Of a stretch of 33,007 nucleotides of DNA, positions 2,295 through 19,658 are shown piece after piece; positions within the stretch are counted from its first letter, which is position 1, and each line of letters begins with the position of its first letter. A program made the translations under genes and the position numbers. The notes beneath the pieces are model-generated. The model saw only the letters and a program-made list of their open reading frames with translations. It was not told the origin of the DNA and searched no databases. The DNA comes from Clostridia bacterium (lineage in GTDB: Bacteria > Bacillota > Clostridia > TANB77 > CAG-508): positions 1 through 33,007 of the forward strand of contig JAFRFO010000038.1 of assembly GCA_017434295.1 (NCBI GenBank). Reading direction: 5' to 3'.

Positions 2295-3383
2295 ATGATA
2301 AAATTTATATGTATAGAGATTTTGGCTAGTGTTTTAGTAAGCCTTATATACTTTTATGTCAACATAAAAGATAAGAAAACAAAAAAATGTAAACTTGAAA
2401 AATTTTCATTATTAATATATTCAATGACTTTAGGATTACTATGGATAATTTTATTAAACATTAGTATATACTTTTCAAAATACACTAAATTGAAATTCAT
2501 TGTATTTATGGTGTCGGGATTAATTCTTCTACTTATATTGAATGAGATATTGAAAAGAATTAAATTTAAATATTCCTACAGAGATAAAGAATATAAAATC
2601 AATATTATAATTATGATAGAAATTTTAACACTAAAAATTTATCCGATATTTAAAAGAATAAAAAGAGCTTTTTTTAGAATGTCGAAAGAGCTAATTACAT
2701 TAATTCCAGTTATAGTAATAGAAATGTTGTTTGTATATTTTTTTTCATTTTTTTCATCTGTAGAAGATAAAGAATGGGATATTTTTGAATTGATTTTAAC
2801 TACAATAATAATAACTGCATATATAAACATATATAATTCTGAAAGAGAAAGAAGAAACAAATTAAAATGGCAATACAAATATTGCTATTTTGTAGAAAGC
2901 AATATGTATGATTACATAGAGAAAATTATGATTTTAATTGGCATAACAAAAGAAGAAAAATATAAGATTTTAGATTATTTAGCATTTCCAAAACCACTAA
3001 TAGCCGAAATAAAAGAATTTAAAATTACAGACAAATATAAACAATTTATAAATAAAAATATAAATAATACTGAAATAATACAGAAATACATTGAAGAAAT
3101 AACTGAAACATTTGTAAATAATATAAAAGAAAATAGAAATGAATTAATATTTATAAAAGAAAATAATAATAATGAGGATTATGTATTTCATAATTGTATA
3201 GATACAGCTAATAATATAAAAAGAAATATATTATTAGCTGATATAAACAAAATAGGAGATACTATTCTTATGATGTTACCAGATTTGATATATTATTGTT
3301 CGGATATCTTAAAATTAATTAATTCTATTTGGGATGAAGATAATGTATATAGTGACAGAATAAATTCTATATTACAAGAATAA
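2295..3383 (+). CDS. Multi-pass membrane protein of unknown function
   Basis: 362 residues; I do not recognise a family. Hydrophobic segments lie near residues 1-22, 38-58, 66-84, 134-155 and 163-182. A Lys-rich, mainly helical and probably cytoplasmic C-terminal half follows (about 185-362). It starts 18 bases after the DUF1016 stop and probably shares its transcript; the upstream purine stretch (ATGGAG) is a weak RBS. A SEC-C zinc-motif remnant follows in another frame 8 bases after the stop, and a terminator at 3479. It looks like accessory cargo of the decayed mobile element. The frame is long and very AT-rich but codon-like, so it is probably a real gene. Confidence 0.6.
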   Translation: MIKFICIEILASVLVSLIYFYVNIKDKKTKKCKLEKFSLLIYSMTLGLLWIILLNISIYFSKYTKLKFIVFMVSGLILLLILNEILKRIKFKYSYRDKEYKINIIIMIEILTLKIYPIFKRIKRAFFRMSKELITLIPVIVIEMLFVYFFSFFSSVEDKEWDIFELILTTIIITAYINIYNSERERRNKLKWQYKYCYFVESNMYDYIEKIMILIGITKEEKYKILDYLAFPKPLIAEIKEFKITDKYKQFINKNINNTEIIQKYIEEITETFVNNIKENRNELIFIKENNNNEDYVFHNCIDTANNIKRNILLADINKIGDTILMMLPDLIYYCSDILKLINSIWDEDNVYSDRINSILQE

Positions 3384-7061: not shown

Positions 7062-8158
7062 ATGTTAGAGCTAGAAGAAAATGAAAAAGTTATAAAAGCA
7101 TTAATAGAAAAATTACAAGAATTGGGTGAGTCACTTTGACATAAAAGCAAAGCAAGAAGAATTAAAAGAATTAGAAGAAACAACTATGCAAGAAGGATTT
7201 TGGACAAACAATGATAAAAAAGATGAAATATTATCTAAAATAAAAAGTAATAAAAAAATATGTACAACATATTTAGAATTAAAAAATGAAATACAAAACA
7301 TTGAAGAATTATCAGAACTTGTTCAGCAAGAGTTTGATGAAGAAATAAAAAAAGAAGTAATAAAAACTACTTCTAAATTACAAAAAGAAGTAGAAAAATT
7401 AGAATTGCAGACAATGTTATCAGGTAAATATGATGCAAACAATGCAATTCTTACAATTCATCCAGGAGCAGGACGGAACAGAATCGCAAGACTGGGCAGA
7501 AATGCTATATAGAATGTATACACGTTGGGCAGAAAAAAATCAATATGAAGTAAAAGAACTTGATTATTTAGAAGGAGAAGAAGCGGGAATAAAAAGCGTA
7601 ACCTTTGAAATAATAGGTGAAAATGCATATGGATATATGAAAAGTGAAATGGGAGTACATAGATTAGTTAGAATATCGCCATTTGATAGTGGAGGAAGAC
7701 GTCATACATCATTTGCTTCAGTTGAAGTTTTACCAGAGATTACTGATGATATAGATATTCAAATAAACCCAGATGATTTAAGAATAGATACATACAGAGC
7801 ATCAGGTGCTGGAGGACAACATATAAATAAAACATCATCTGCTGTAAGAATTACACATATTCCAACAAATATAGTTGTAGCGTGTCAAACAGAACGTTCG
7901 CAAATACAAAATAGAGAAACCGCAATGAAAATGTTAAAATCAAAATTGATGGATTTAAAAGAAAAAGAACAAAAAGACAAAATAGAAGATTTAAAAGGAG
8001 TTCAAATGGATATAGCTTGGGGAAGCCAAATTAGGTCTTATGTATTTTGCCCATATACCATGGTAAAAGACCATAGAACAAACTACGAAGTAGGAAATGT
8101 TCAAGCAGTAATGGACGGAGATATAGATGGATTTATAGAAAGCTATTTAAAACAATAA
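7062..8158 (+). CDS. prfB: Peptide chain release factor 2, needing two +1 frameshifts
   Basis: RF2 reads UGA and UAA stops and hydrolyses peptidyl-tRNA. It starts at ATG 7062 (RBS AGGAGAG). The first 25 codons end at CTT TGA C (7134-7140), the classic RF2 autoregulatory +1 site, with a Shine-Dalgarno-like GGGTGA just upstream. The +1 frame then runs through the coiled N-terminal domain to HPGAG, where an extra C (7474) makes an in-frame CGG. Staying in frame ends at TAG (7510-7512). Skipping the C gives [10 protein letters not shown], exactly the family sequence, and continues to the GGQ motif ([16 protein letters not shown]) and the normal C-terminus. With both shifts the product is 364 residues, the usual RF2 length. 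Because RF2 is normally essential, the second shift is either efficiently recoded or a sequence error; see the CGG finding. Confidence 0.93.
7134..7140 (+). promoter_or_regulatory. prfB: Programmed +1 frameshift site of prfB (CUU UGA C)
   Basis: CTT TGA C after 25 codons, preceded by GGGTGA (7124-7129) and TCA. This matches the known RF2 autoregulatory element: low RF2 lets the ribosome slip over the UGA. Confidence 0.95.
7474..7477 (+). other. prfB: CGGA +1 recoding site in prfB
   Basis: GCA GGA C GGA ACA: an extra C creates in-frame CGG (7474-7476). Dropping the C restores the conserved GAGGTES sequence. Confidence 0.8.
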
Positions 8159-9344: not shown

Positions 9345-10752
9345 TGGTTTTTAGATATTATCCTTGCAAGAAGATATTTCGAAGGAATCCTGGCTGAAAT
9401 GGCATCTGATAGCATTATGGAAAGTATAAGGAACAATAATAAGGCAGATGATAATGAAGAGGAAGAGGAAAATGAAACCAATATCGAGGATGAATTTCCT
9501 TTGTTATCAGAGGAGCAGTATGGAGGCAAAGAAGAATCAAACTATTACGAAATTCCTATAAAGCTTAAAAGCTGCTTAAGCTACATAAATGCTGATGTAA
9601 CTAAGTCTTCTCCCATTTTAGGAAGAGAAAAGGAAACAGAAGCAATTATGAAAGTTTTGCTTAAGAACAAAAAAAGGAATTGTATCCTGGTAGGAAAACC
9701 TGGCGTTGGAAAAACTGCAATTATGGAGCATCTTGCCTGGAAAATTGCTAAAGGTGAGTGCGTAGAAGAGCTTAAGGGTAAAAAAATCTTGATGCTTGAT
9801 GTAAATGGCATAGTTGCTGGCACAATCTACAGAGGAATACTATTTGTATTTTGAAAGGGATAAAGCTTTCAAGAGAAGATTCGAAACTATTATGGTTAAG
9901 GTTCCTAAGTATAACGAAGTATATCCTATGCTTAAAATGCAAATAAGAAATTTGAGAAAAATTCACAGAGTTTCTATAACACCCGTGGTTGTAAATTTTA
10001 TCATTAAGATTGCATCTTGTTTTAATGCTGAAACCAGCAATCCAGATGTAAGCTTGGATTTGATTGACAAATCTATGGCTGCTGCTAAGATGCAGGGATC
10101 AAAGATTGTTACAAAGGAAATAGTTTTGAGCAATTTCGCAGAAGAATATAAAAGGTTCAGCGAGATGAGCAGTGAAATGAAAAACTCTGTAGCATATCAC
10201 GAAGTGGGACATTATTTGGTTAGAAGGTATGTAAATACTAAAGCTTTCAAAATCAATGTTCTTGCTATCAGCATAATTCCTGCAGAAGACCATCTTGGAC
10301 TTACAGTTTTTGACTCCAGCGATTATAAGGATAATCTTTGGGGATATAAAGAAATTGTTGAAGAGATTGCTATGGAACTTGGTGGACGTGTTGCAGAAAA
10401 GATGTATACAGGTGTATATTCATCTGGTGCTTCTGGAGATTTAAACATGGCAACAGAGAATGCACGTTCTATGCTCTTGGAATATGGGCTTATTCCTGAA
10501 TTCTCAATGAGAAACTTTGAAAAAGATATGGATAATGAAACAAGAAAAAAGCTAAATGATGAAATTGATAAGATTATCAAAGAAGCTTATAAACTTGCAG
10601 AAGTTATTCTTACAGAACATAAAAATGTTCTTGAGAATCTTTCAAACTCTCTTGTGGAAAATGGAATACTTGTAGATATAGAAATAGAAAAAATCTGCAA
10701 AGCCTATGAAAAAACGAAAAAGTCTTTAAAGCCAGAGAAAAAGCTTGGTTAA
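9345..10752 (+). pseudogene. ClpB-like AAA ATPase fused to M41 (FtsH-type) metallopeptidase, with internal deletion
   Basis: A coding-like frame from 9345 (ATG at 9399) has an acidic linker, then AAA sequence with Walker A GKPGVGKTA up to DVNGIVAGTIYRG. There it jumps straight into TEEYYLYFERDKAFKRRF of the same AAA fold in another frame and stops at 9854. About 60 residues, including Walker B, are missing by comparison with ClpB. The junction (near 9825-9834) lies in ACAGAGGA, which fits both sides: a deletion between short direct repeats. The downstream frame carries the M41 peptidase with HEVGH (about 10198-10212) and the third ligand region GASGDLNMATENARSML. The 5' end also looks cut. 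Codon use is richer in G/C than the neighbours. The downstream half could still be translated alone, but no RBS was recognised. Confidence 0.75.
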
Positions 10753-10862: not shown

Positions 10863-12221
10863 TTACAGTATCTTGGCTGCGTATTTTGCGAGTTCTGAAC
10901 GTACAGATTCTTCATCATTCAAAGTAATCTGCCATGCTTTGGAATATCCTTTCATTTTTTCAGAAAGGAAAACCAAACCGTTGTAACGTTCGTCAAGTTT
11001 CGGATTGTCTATCTGGGTAGGATCTCCCAAAAAGACGATCTTTGAACCTTCACCAACACGAGAAACAATGGACTTAATGTCATCTGGATGGATATTCTGT
11101 GTTTCGTCAATTATGATAAAGGTATCAACAATTGTACGTCCACGGAAAAATCCAATAGGCTGCATCTGGATAATGCCTTTTTCATAGTAATAGAAGGTAT
11201 TATCTGTATTGTCCATATCCTTATTTTTCTTTTTATTCCTTCCGTTAACAAGAAGACGAAGATTATCCTTAAATCCACCAATATGAGGTGAGAACTTGTC
11301 TTCAATCTCTCCAGGGAGAAAACCTATTTCCTCACCGCCAACAGTAGCAACTGAAGTCGAAATCATTATAGAATCATACGTGTTGTTTTCAACAGTCTGA
11401 TCAAGGGCACATGCGAGTGTTTGGTAAGTTTTACCAGTACCAGCTCCGCCTTTTACTATAACGATTGGTGCTTCACTGCAATTTGTGAGCATTGCCTCAA
11501 TAAGCATAACCTGTCCAGCGTTTTTGGCTATTATGCCGTAGGGGTAATACTTCTCAAAGTTGAGACCAACAATGTTTTCGCCGTTGTAACGTCCAAGCTG
11601 AACGTTGTAAGGATTATTGGCATCATATAATTCAACGAACTCATTAGGTACCCATTCAAAGGTAGAGCTCTTATGAATTTTTTTGATATCAATCTGATTT
11701 TCGGATTTAAAAGCTTCCAAGTTTTCATAAGAAATAGTAGCATGTACTCTTCCTTTATACTGCTCATCAAGAGCAGGGAAAACCTCATCTTTATAATCCA
11801 TGGCTTTAATGCCTACAGATTTGGCTTTAAGCCTGAAAGCAGTATTCTTACTAATAAGAATGACCGGCCTTTTTGGTTTTTCTTCACTAAGACCGATTGC
11901 AATCTGCAATCTTCTTAGTTCAGAATTCGAGTTAGTCTCTACAGGAACTTTTACATCCTTAAATCCATATTCTACGCGTAAATAACCTCCATTCATCTGT
12001 TTTACTCCAGTTTCTGAAGTAAGTTCACGAAAACTGAAACTGTCAAGGTACTTGAGCACCTTTTGTGCATTTTTTCCCTTTGTGTTATACTGCTTTGCCA
12101 TTTCCTGCAGCTCATCAATTGATATGCCAGGAATAACGACTATATTGTCATCAAACCGTAAGCATGAATTGGGAGTGGCTGCAAGAGCATTGCTGCTGAG
12201 AATAAAAAACTTAGTAGCCAT
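10863..12221 (-). CDS. PIN-PhoH family ATPase with degenerate PIN site
   Basis: 452 residues from ATG at 12221 (AAAGGAG 8 bases before; an upstream TTG is less likely). The N-terminal PIN-like domain covers about 1-150. The C-terminal PhoH ATPase has Walker A GGAGTGKT (258-265), Walker B FIIIDETQN and the sensor FLGDPTQID. In PIN-PhoH proteins the first acidic residue is the D of LDTN; here it is LSSN (S9). The SKD motif reads SKN (N126). PIN nuclease activity is therefore doubtful while the ATPase looks intact. Composition is richer in G/C than in neighbouring genes, like the facing AAA/M41 remnant, suggesting transfer. Codon 22 is CGG (12156-12158), read as the conserved Arg of the family's FRFED-like motif; this matters for the CGG recoding idea. 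Confidence 0.88.
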   Translation of the reverse strand: MATKFFILSSNALAATPNSCLRFDDNIVVIPGISIDELQEMAKQYNTKGKNAQKVLKYLDSFSFRELTSETGVKQMNGGYLRVEYGFKDVKVPVETNSNSELRRLQIAIGLSEEKPKRPVILISKNTAFRLKAKSVGIKAMDYKDEVFPALDEQYKGRVHATISYENLEAFKSENQIDIKKIHKSSTFEWVPNEFVELYDANNPYNVQLGRYNGENIVGLNFEKYYPYGIIAKNAGQVMLIEAMLTNCSEAPIVIVKGGAGTGKTYQTLACALDQTVENNTYDSIMISTSVATVGGEEIGFLPGEIEDKFSPHIGGFKDNLRLLVNGRNKKKNKDMDNTDNTFYYYEKGIIQMQPIGFFRGRTIVDTFIIIDETQNIHPDDIKSIVSRVGEGSKIVFLGDPTQIDNPKLDERYNGLVFLSEKMKGYSKAWQITLNDEESVRSELAKYAAKIL

Positions 12222-12256
12222 ACACAAGACTCCTTTAATATATTTAAAGTTTTTTA

Positions 12257-12326: not shown

Positions 12327-12356
12327 GCTTTTTTTTGCTTTCTTTATATATTTTTA

Positions 12357-12565
12357 TTTTTATTTTTACAATTCACAGTATGAATCTTAAAGCCCGCGCC
12401 GGGGAAAGATATTTATTTTTTAAGTGGCTCGGGGGGACCGTTCAAATTTTCTAGAAAGCTTTGCTTTCATTAGAAAATTTAGAATGGGGAGAACGGCAAA
12501 AAATAAATATCTTTCCCCATAGGCAGGGCAAATAAAACTTTAACTGTGAATTGTAAAAATAAAAA
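12357..12565. repeat. 209-bp nested inverted-repeat element (MITE-like or large structured RNA)
   Basis: It occupies most of the gap 12222-12650. The outer 23-bp perfect inverted repeats (12357-12379 and 12543-12565) end in ACAATTCACAGT / ACTGTGAATTGT. Inside are imperfect GCCC..GCC / GGC..GGGC arms, perfect 21-bp arms (12401-12421 / 12498-12518, GGGGAAAGATATTTATTTT and complement), CCGTTC / GAACGG, AAATTTTCTA / TAGAAAATTT, and the tip GAAAGC-TTT-GCTTTC (12454-12468). It is G/C-rich at the joints, unlike its surroundings. No ORF is seen in it. It could be a non-autonomous transposable element or a large cruciform/RNA. Confidence 0.8.
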
Positions 12566-12578
12566 AATTAAAAAATCC

Positions 12579-12617
12579 AAAAAAATGTTTGACATTTTTT
12601 TGTTTGTGTGATATTAT
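12579..12617 (+). promoter_or_regulatory. lexA promoter overlapped by a perfect palindrome
   Basis: TTGACA (12589-12594), 17 bases and TATTAT (12612-12617). The -35 is embedded in a perfect 10-bp inverted repeat, AAAAAAATGT-TTG-ACATTTTTTT (12579-12601), a candidate operator. No GAACnnnnGTTC SOS box is visible. Confidence 0.7.
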
Positions 12618-12650
12618 ATGAAAAAATATAGAAATAGGAGTGATGAAAAA

Positions 12651-13301
12651 ATGCCTAGAAAAAAACAAGAACTTAATAAAAGAGAAAAAGCAATATTAAA
12701 ATTTATTGAAAAACAAATATTAACAGAAGGATACCCACCATCAGTTAGAGAAATAGGAAAAGCAGTAGGATTAAACTCAACAGCTACTGTACATGGGTAT
12801 TTAGCAAGACTTGATGAAAAAGGTTATATCAAAAAACAAGATAAAAAAGGTAGAACATTAAGATTATTAAAAGGTGGTTCTGGTGAATCAAAATTAACAT
12901 CTAGCAAAGATTTCTATACACAAAAAGAATTAGTAGATGTACCAATTATTGGTAAAATCACAGCTGGAGAGCCAATACTTGCTGTTGAAAATATAACAGA
13001 TACCTTCCCAATTCCAATTGATTTTGTTGGAAACTCAGAAAGCTTTATGCTTACAGTTAGAGGAGAAAGCATGATAGAAGCTGGTATTTTAGATGGGGAT
13101 TATATATTAGTAAAAAGACAAAACTCTGCAAACAATGGAGAAATAGTAGTAGCTTTAATTGGTGATGAAGCAACAGTAAAAACTTTTTATAAAGAAAAAG
13201 ATCATATTAGACTTCAACCAGAAAATAGCACTATGGATCCTATTATTGTTCCTAATTGCGAAATATTAGGAAAAGTTGCAGGTGTATTTAGAAAGATGTA
13301 A
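12651..13301 (+). CDS. lexA: LexA repressor (SOS response)
   Basis: The start at ATG 12651 is chosen for AGGAG (12636-12640); it gives [13 protein letters not shown]. 216 residues. The N-terminal winged-helix DNA-binding domain ([25 protein letters not shown]) is followed by the self-cleaving S24 domain with cleavage site A105-G106 (ITAGEPI), catalytic S140 ([10 protein letters not shown]) and K177 (ATVKTFY). RecA filaments would trigger autocleavage after DNA damage. It has its own strong promoter with an overlapping palindrome. The ABC exporter genes begin 14 bases downstream, so they may be co-transcribed. Confidence 0.95.
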
Positions 13302-19306: not shown

Positions 19307-19658
19307 GGGGGTGTAATGGTTTCGACATTGCACTAGAAGTAAGAATAGCAAGTAGTGGATTCTCGTTGGCCACTATAAAAGCGAGAAAATAAATATAAAC
19401 GCTGATAGAGAAGAATTAGCATTAGCTGCCTAGGTGCAGCTACACTTTATAAAACTCCCCACAAGTTTTGATAAAGTGCCGTATTAGTGGGAAACAAAGC
19501 TACTTTTGCTTTTAAAGTAGTAGGTATTTTAAAAAGCTATATTTAGTTTTAGCCTGTTTGCCGGCGAAAACTAAATGAATAAAAAAGACAAAATAAACTT
19601 GTAGAAGTTCTTATGGAAGGTGTTATGGACAGGAGTTCGACTCTCCTCACCTCCACCA
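19307..19658 (+). ncRNA. ssrA: tmRNA (ribosome rescue)
   Basis: The 5' end GGGGGTG pairs with CACCTCC before ACCA at the 3' end. The T arm GGAGTTCGACTCTCC is typical, and the 3' CCA is encoded. The tag frame GCT...TAG at 19401-19433 gives ADREELALAA, the hydrophobic LAA end expected for Clp recognition. Pseudoknot-like stems follow the tag. tmRNA with SmpB frees stalled ribosomes, which is of interest in a genome with presumed stalling CGG codons. No integrated element is seen at its 3' end. Confidence 0.95.

Follow-up and report, generated by a model that had tools for sequence, protein, structure and literature searches.

We found that a nested palindrome in the gap between the divergent phoH and lexA genes of an uncultured Clostridia bacterium is probably a composite non-autonomous mobile element, in which an IS66-type MITE holds at its centre another palindromic repeat that has dispersed on its own (core around 12431-12490). 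This reading follows from outer ends and 8-bp duplications that match IS66 elements of sister species, together with an inner family that is separate. The window, that is, the whole stretch of DNA analysed (33,007 nucleotides), is an entire contig of a genome of 1.40 Mb in 118 contigs; the genes named around the palindrome include prfB, an aspartate kinase, an AAA/M41 protease and phoH, which lies on the minus strand (10863-12227), with lexA on the plus strand (12618-13301). An earlier note, made from the sequence alone, had described a 209-bp nested inverted repeat with no ORF in this gap, and both observations held. Indeed, the 23-bp outer arms (12357-12379 / 12543-12565) and the 21-bp inner arms (12401-12421 / 12498-12518) are perfectly complementary, and no ORF of at least 80 aa is present in 12357-12565. 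The fold of 12340-12580 (241 nt) reaches -91 kcal/mol; dinucleotide shuffles average -43.2 ± 4.2, and none of 200 did as well (z = -11.3). The features are as follows.

12357-12565, no strand: whole nested palindrome, from arm search and folding
12357-12364, no strand: left flank of 8 bp, TTTTTATT, which is the inverted complement of AATAAAAA, the flank on the right (12558-12565)
12365-12378, plus strand: left terminal inverted repeat of the predicted outer IS66-type MITE, TTTACAATTCACAG; family form GTTACARTTCAC/G; same end type as the IS66-family elements L271, L273 and L277
12544-12557, minus strand: right terminal inverted repeat of the predicted outer MITE, end CTGTGAATTGTAAA
12388-12402, plus strand: joint 2, left strand, around AAAGCCCGCGCCGGG, common to partial outer copies elsewhere in the genome (L009, L010)
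12514-12532, plus strand: joint 2, right strand, around CCCCATAGGCAGGGCAAAT, compared with L011, L012 and L013
12403-12514, plus strand: inner dispersed element (helix, joint 1, apical hairpin), covariance-model match of 103.7 bits
12431-12443, plus strand: joint 1, core motif on the left side, GGGGGGACCGTTC; the family form is GTGGGGACCGTTC, from sequence comparison of copies
12588-12618, plus strand: lexA promoter, -35 TTGACA at 12589-12594 and -10 TATTAT at 12612-12617

The lexA promoter, which begins ~23-31 bp past the end of the nested element, is kept in 29 congeners. The listed lexA start (12618) immediately adjoins the -10 region, and the ATG at 12651, which follows AGGAG, is a more likely start (window 12618-12653). 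Elsewhere in the window, prfB (release factor 2; 7126-8158) is apparently split across two overlapping frames, as expected from its well-known programmed frameshift; two neighbouring ORFs at 9399-10752 match the start of an AAA ATPase (ClpA/B-like) and an AAA lid with an M41 (FtsH-like) peptidase, and together look like a single AAA-M41 protease, possibly frameshifted; and Rfam places a tmRNA gene at 19307-19658.

BLAST of the element against its own genome returned two separate sets of partial copies, one to the inner and the other to the outer part, with matches reaching E 3e-26. The inner core consists of GGGGACCGTTC, a hairpin and GAATGGGGA (12403-12514), and the outer ends are TTTACAATTCACAG / CTGTGAATTGTAAA (12365-12557). 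Read side by side, the inner copies share the order helix, joint 1 with GTGGGGACCGTTC / GAATGGGGA and apical hairpin, and the outer copies have ends GTTACAATTCACAG followed by joint 2, CCCGCGCCGGG / CCCATAGGCAGGG. Further genome copies, for which the earlier note had proposed a search, were thus found: the inner repeat has 17 real sites by pattern and 19 covariance-model matches, and the outer family comes in addition. In two near-identically flanked regions of this genome (G000), on contigs C7 and C21 (L190, L191), each flank pair holds a core copy, which reflects either duplication of the region or an assembly of mixed strains.

The inner repeat behaves as a separate unit, because it is found without the outer shell and because, in one genome (CANPDB01), the same core and joint 2 lie inside two different outer palindromes, GTTACAGTTCAG... 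and GCAATCGCTTAAAATTTAATTATGA... Most core copies of the window's own genome have neither joint 2 nor the outer ends, and outer copies without the core occur (the L107 copy at 3078-3233, L124 and L171). Nesting of inner in outer was seen in the own genome solely at the window copy; L036 in genome G041 is nested similarly. The alternative that both layers are one IS66-type MITE family, whose standalone inner copies are remnants with decayed outer ends, gains from CANPDB01, where core, joint 2 and outer ends recur jointly in many copies. However, the two different outer palindromes of that same genome, the bare core copies and the core-less outer copies all count against it, and we consider it unlikely.

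The outer part belongs to another dispersed family, whose terminal repeats read GTTACARTTCA(C/G). Exact 8-bp direct target duplications flank outer-family copies at L107 (AATAATGT), L133 (AACATTAT) and L122 (TATTTTTT), and the outer copy at L098 has one with a single mismatch (AATTTATT/AATTTCTT). At the window copy a direct 8-bp duplication is absent, and the flanks TTTTTATT / AATAAAAA are inverted complements. In sister species, IS66-family transposase genes (PF03050) sit inside 1.5-1.8 kb insertion sequences. The ends of IS66-type elements are GTTACTGTTCAGAC (L271), GTTACAGTTCAGTA (L273) and GTTACTGTTCAGCC (L277), with GTTACTACTCAGCC as a further end; the outer ends, tested against those of L271, L273 and L277, match them. 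Three IS66-family elements are bordered by perfect 8-bp direct repeats (ATAAAATC, ATTTGAGG and TTTATTTA), and duplications of 8 bp are described for the IS66 elements ISPpa5a and ISPpa7 (PMC3281130). Judged by its sequence, the outer part (193 bp, 12365-12557) is an IS66-type MITE, so called because its end sequence and the duplication length of its family match IS66-family elements. It contains no transposase gene, is multicopy and is not fixed at its site in relatives.

L271 has an uninterrupted transposase frame (496 aa) that passes the Pfam cut-off and scores 170.6 bits with NF033517, the NCBIfam IS66 model, slightly below the cut-off of 180; the frames are broken in L277 and probably also in L273. 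A PF03050 (IS66) search of G000, which is 95% complete in 118 contigs so that a copy at a contig break may have been missed, gave no match, and IS66 genes and the core occur together little across the genus (only in G024, G035 and G055, G053-type exceptions aside). Because of these two results, we infer the mobilising enzyme from relatives, and for the outer part only. A long end-to-end pair at L154, considered as a transposase-bearing element, was rejected, as it encloses an IMP dehydrogenase-like ORF (named from sequence only) instead. Like IS66-family insertion sequences and the MITEs derived from them, the element is non-coding, has GTTAC-type terminal inverted repeats as in the IS66 elements of the genus and shows 8-bp duplications at sister copies. 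Unlike IS66-derived MITEs, it has an interior of successive palindromes whose unpaired joints are conserved, and this interior is not an evident deletion derivative of an insertion sequence; it holds a second repeat at its centre, and its own genome yielded no IS66 transposase. A literature search for an IS66 MITE or a nested Clostridia MITE of like kind found nothing matching.

For the inner repeat, no direct target duplication was found in nine copies or, by eye, in the arms and flanks of 16 B1-type copies; in the latter the perfect arms continue a few bp past the shared arm part, with a sequence that varies by copy. We weighed whether a Y1/HUH transposase (RAYT, TnpA-REP) moves the inner repeat in single-stranded form, as it would a REP element. 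Y1_Tnp (RAYT-type) genes are common in the genus (51/59 genomes), and a G-rich motif, GTGGGGAC, precedes the hairpin and resembles GGGGACG palindromes beside RAYT genes of the genus. However, the search for such a gene (PF01797) gave no match in the own genome or in the core-carrying genomes G019, G045 and G050, and 20 congener RAYT loci that were inspected had other palindromes and no copy of the inner core. The GTAG-type tetranucleotide, by which REPs are defined (PMC8266576), is likewise missing 5' of the inner hairpin, GTGGGGAC standing in its place. A REP origin is, thus, improbable. Some RAYT genes of the genus (L253, L254, L256) lie near perfect palindromes with GGGGACGGAGG, GGGACGGAG or GGGGACGTTTC, which form a separate REP-like family. 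The inner repeat shares with REP/BIME elements short dispersed intergenic hairpins, a conserved G-rich motif by the stem and an internal mismatch region; the whole element differs in the lack of GTAG, in being much larger and nested, in having no linked RAYT and in its variable arms with double changes. A rather doubtful idea is that the conserved unpaired joints, between arms that vary freely and always pair, may be recognised, much as attC sites or REPs are, by a recombinase or transposase that reads structure and acts on extruded hairpins, and that would insert into the centres of other palindromes, building nests and flipping them.

The composite reading retains the earlier suggestion of a MITE or other mobile element in part: further copies, patchy occurrence in congeners and matching IS66 ends bear it out, and what was taken for one element is two, one nested in the other. 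Likewise, a transposase with matching ends was found for the outer ends in sister species, with neither PF03050 nor PF01797 detected in the own genome, and target duplications were found at sister copies of the outer family, with none at the window copy or for the inner repeat.

Among the matches listed, the inner core occurs in more than 100 places of uncultured Clostridia assemblies; these copies were fetched by exact core match, so that their core letters are invariant by construction, the adjacent letters and the arms being free to vary. With the covariance model (R1), the core was found in 17 of 59 genomes of the genus (its own and 16 of 58 sampled congeners) at 1 to at least 63 copies each, the top count being the number of candidates scored in that genome. 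In a class sample of 196 genomes, the same type of model matched the core in its own genome and in 0 of 195 others, and viral contigs scanned with the exact core pattern gave no match. Pattern hits in other phyla (L068, L099, L112, L113 and L142), with no palindrome at their flanks, were set aside as chance, and one in a Clostridia record (L149) was dropped, also being without a flanking palindrome. Nearly all copies with resolvable context (96 of 98) are intergenic, and they occur in both orientations. When single inner copies were aligned in search of their empty sites, the intergenic DNA was too diverged or was occupied by other elements.

Upstream of lexA, the core was absent from all 29 congeners in which it was sought. 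Three of these regions (L218, L221, L229) hold other MITEs or palindromes with paired IS66-type ends, GTAACTATTCAG / GTTGCTATTCAG / GTTACAGTTTAG, and L222 has a single such end motif. At L218 (1306-1422) and L229, this spot upstream of lexA is taken in other species by different nested palindromes bearing IS66-type ends, which suggests an insertion hot spot.

The hairpin arms vary between copies and remain perfectly paired around conserved unpaired joints. The median own-arm alignment was 39.5 nt, and 15 nt when arms were swapped between copies. Double changes were seen at 13 of 19 consensus pairs, with one-sided changes (including G.U) nearly absent, and apical-stem pairs of same-genome copies gave 448 double Watson-Crick against 96 single changes, a tally over all copy pairs and hence of non-independent counts. 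Flank comparison of the fetched loci revealed several orthologous pairs with the core in the same orientation (for example, L064/L089, L069/L104 and L066/L122), and others in which the core is inverted relative to its flanks (L033/L109, L004/L114 and L039/L094); at L008/L128 two different subtypes occupy the same intergenic region. The flipped orthologues may instead have arisen by separate insertions into one spot, especially at L004/L114, where the arms differ.

When template switching takes place between inverted repeats, its published signature is inversion of the spacer or loop together with homogenisation of the arms (PMC8794818; PMC8604942). Since perfect arms are copy-specific and centres are flipped at orthologous sites, we infer template switching between arms, which would explain the perfect arms, the flipped centres and the fact that the window copy has inverted flanks of 8 bp. 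The hairpins described in PMC8794818 likewise show compensatory double changes with no G.U intermediates, lengthened stems and inverted loops; those, in contrast, are RNA genes and quasipalindromes, and here we deal with a dispersed repeat family.

The earlier note had also offered a large structured RNA, and one that regulates lexA or phoH, be it a leader, a small RNA or a riboswitch, might account for the very stable fold, the covarying helices with conserved joints and the position adjoining the lexA promoter. The element, however, lies upstream of the predicted lexA transcript rather than inside it, and an Rfam search of the nested palindrome matched no family. An RNA under selection should tolerate G.U over A.C, yet arm mismatches show no G.U excess (67 G.T against 53 A.C in the outer arms; 3 against 2 in the apical stem), A.C being about as frequent as G.T, so that neither strand is favoured as folded RNA. 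Between co-directional genes, copies are antisense in 47 cases and sense in 19, and 20 further copies lie between divergent and 10 between convergent genes; these counts come from simple ORF calls and copies that are not independent. A single copy conserved at the same place would, according to the earlier note, have pointed to a regulatory RNA; the element is instead multicopy, beside unrelated genes, and missing from the 29 congener lexA regions. We therefore regard a regulatory RNA as very unlikely, and the arm, covariation, mismatch and orientation data speak for a process on double-stranded or replicating DNA over a functional RNA. A chance palindrome in AT-rich DNA, to which the AT-rich arms might point, is refuted by the fold z-score of -11.3 and by the genome repeats (E down to 3e-26), and deserves practically no credence.

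ERIC, BOX and similar intergenic palindromic repeats are non-coding, intergenic sequences of 100-250 bp that fold end to end and occur in tens of copies per genome. The present element is like them in size, non-coding nature, location, folding and copy number, and differs in sequence and hosts. To our knowledge, perfect arms that differ from copy to copy around conserved joints have not been described for ERIC/BOX-type families.

Under the composite reading, the GTTACARTTCA-type ends would be the substrate of an IS66-family DDE transposase, which would thereby move the outer 193 bp. The window copy would have arrived by transposition, its target duplication being later erased or converted to the inverted flank. 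Replication-time template switching between hairpin arms would then keep the arms perfectly paired, and may sometimes extend them into flanking DNA and sometimes flip the centre. For the host, the element would be expected to do no more than modulate the region between lexA and phoH.

The nested palindrome is, thus, of an ordinary kind, a non-autonomous transposable palindrome, with an unusual anatomy. It belongs to a dispersed palindrome family of uncultured gut Clostridia that had no match in Rfam or in the literature searched, and whose outer shell is linked to IS66-type elements. It also cautions that a stable fold and strong covariation in such genomes need not imply a functional RNA. With more than 100 copies, orthologous pairs and flipped centres, the family offers a natural data set for arm-to-arm template switching in bacterial palindromes.
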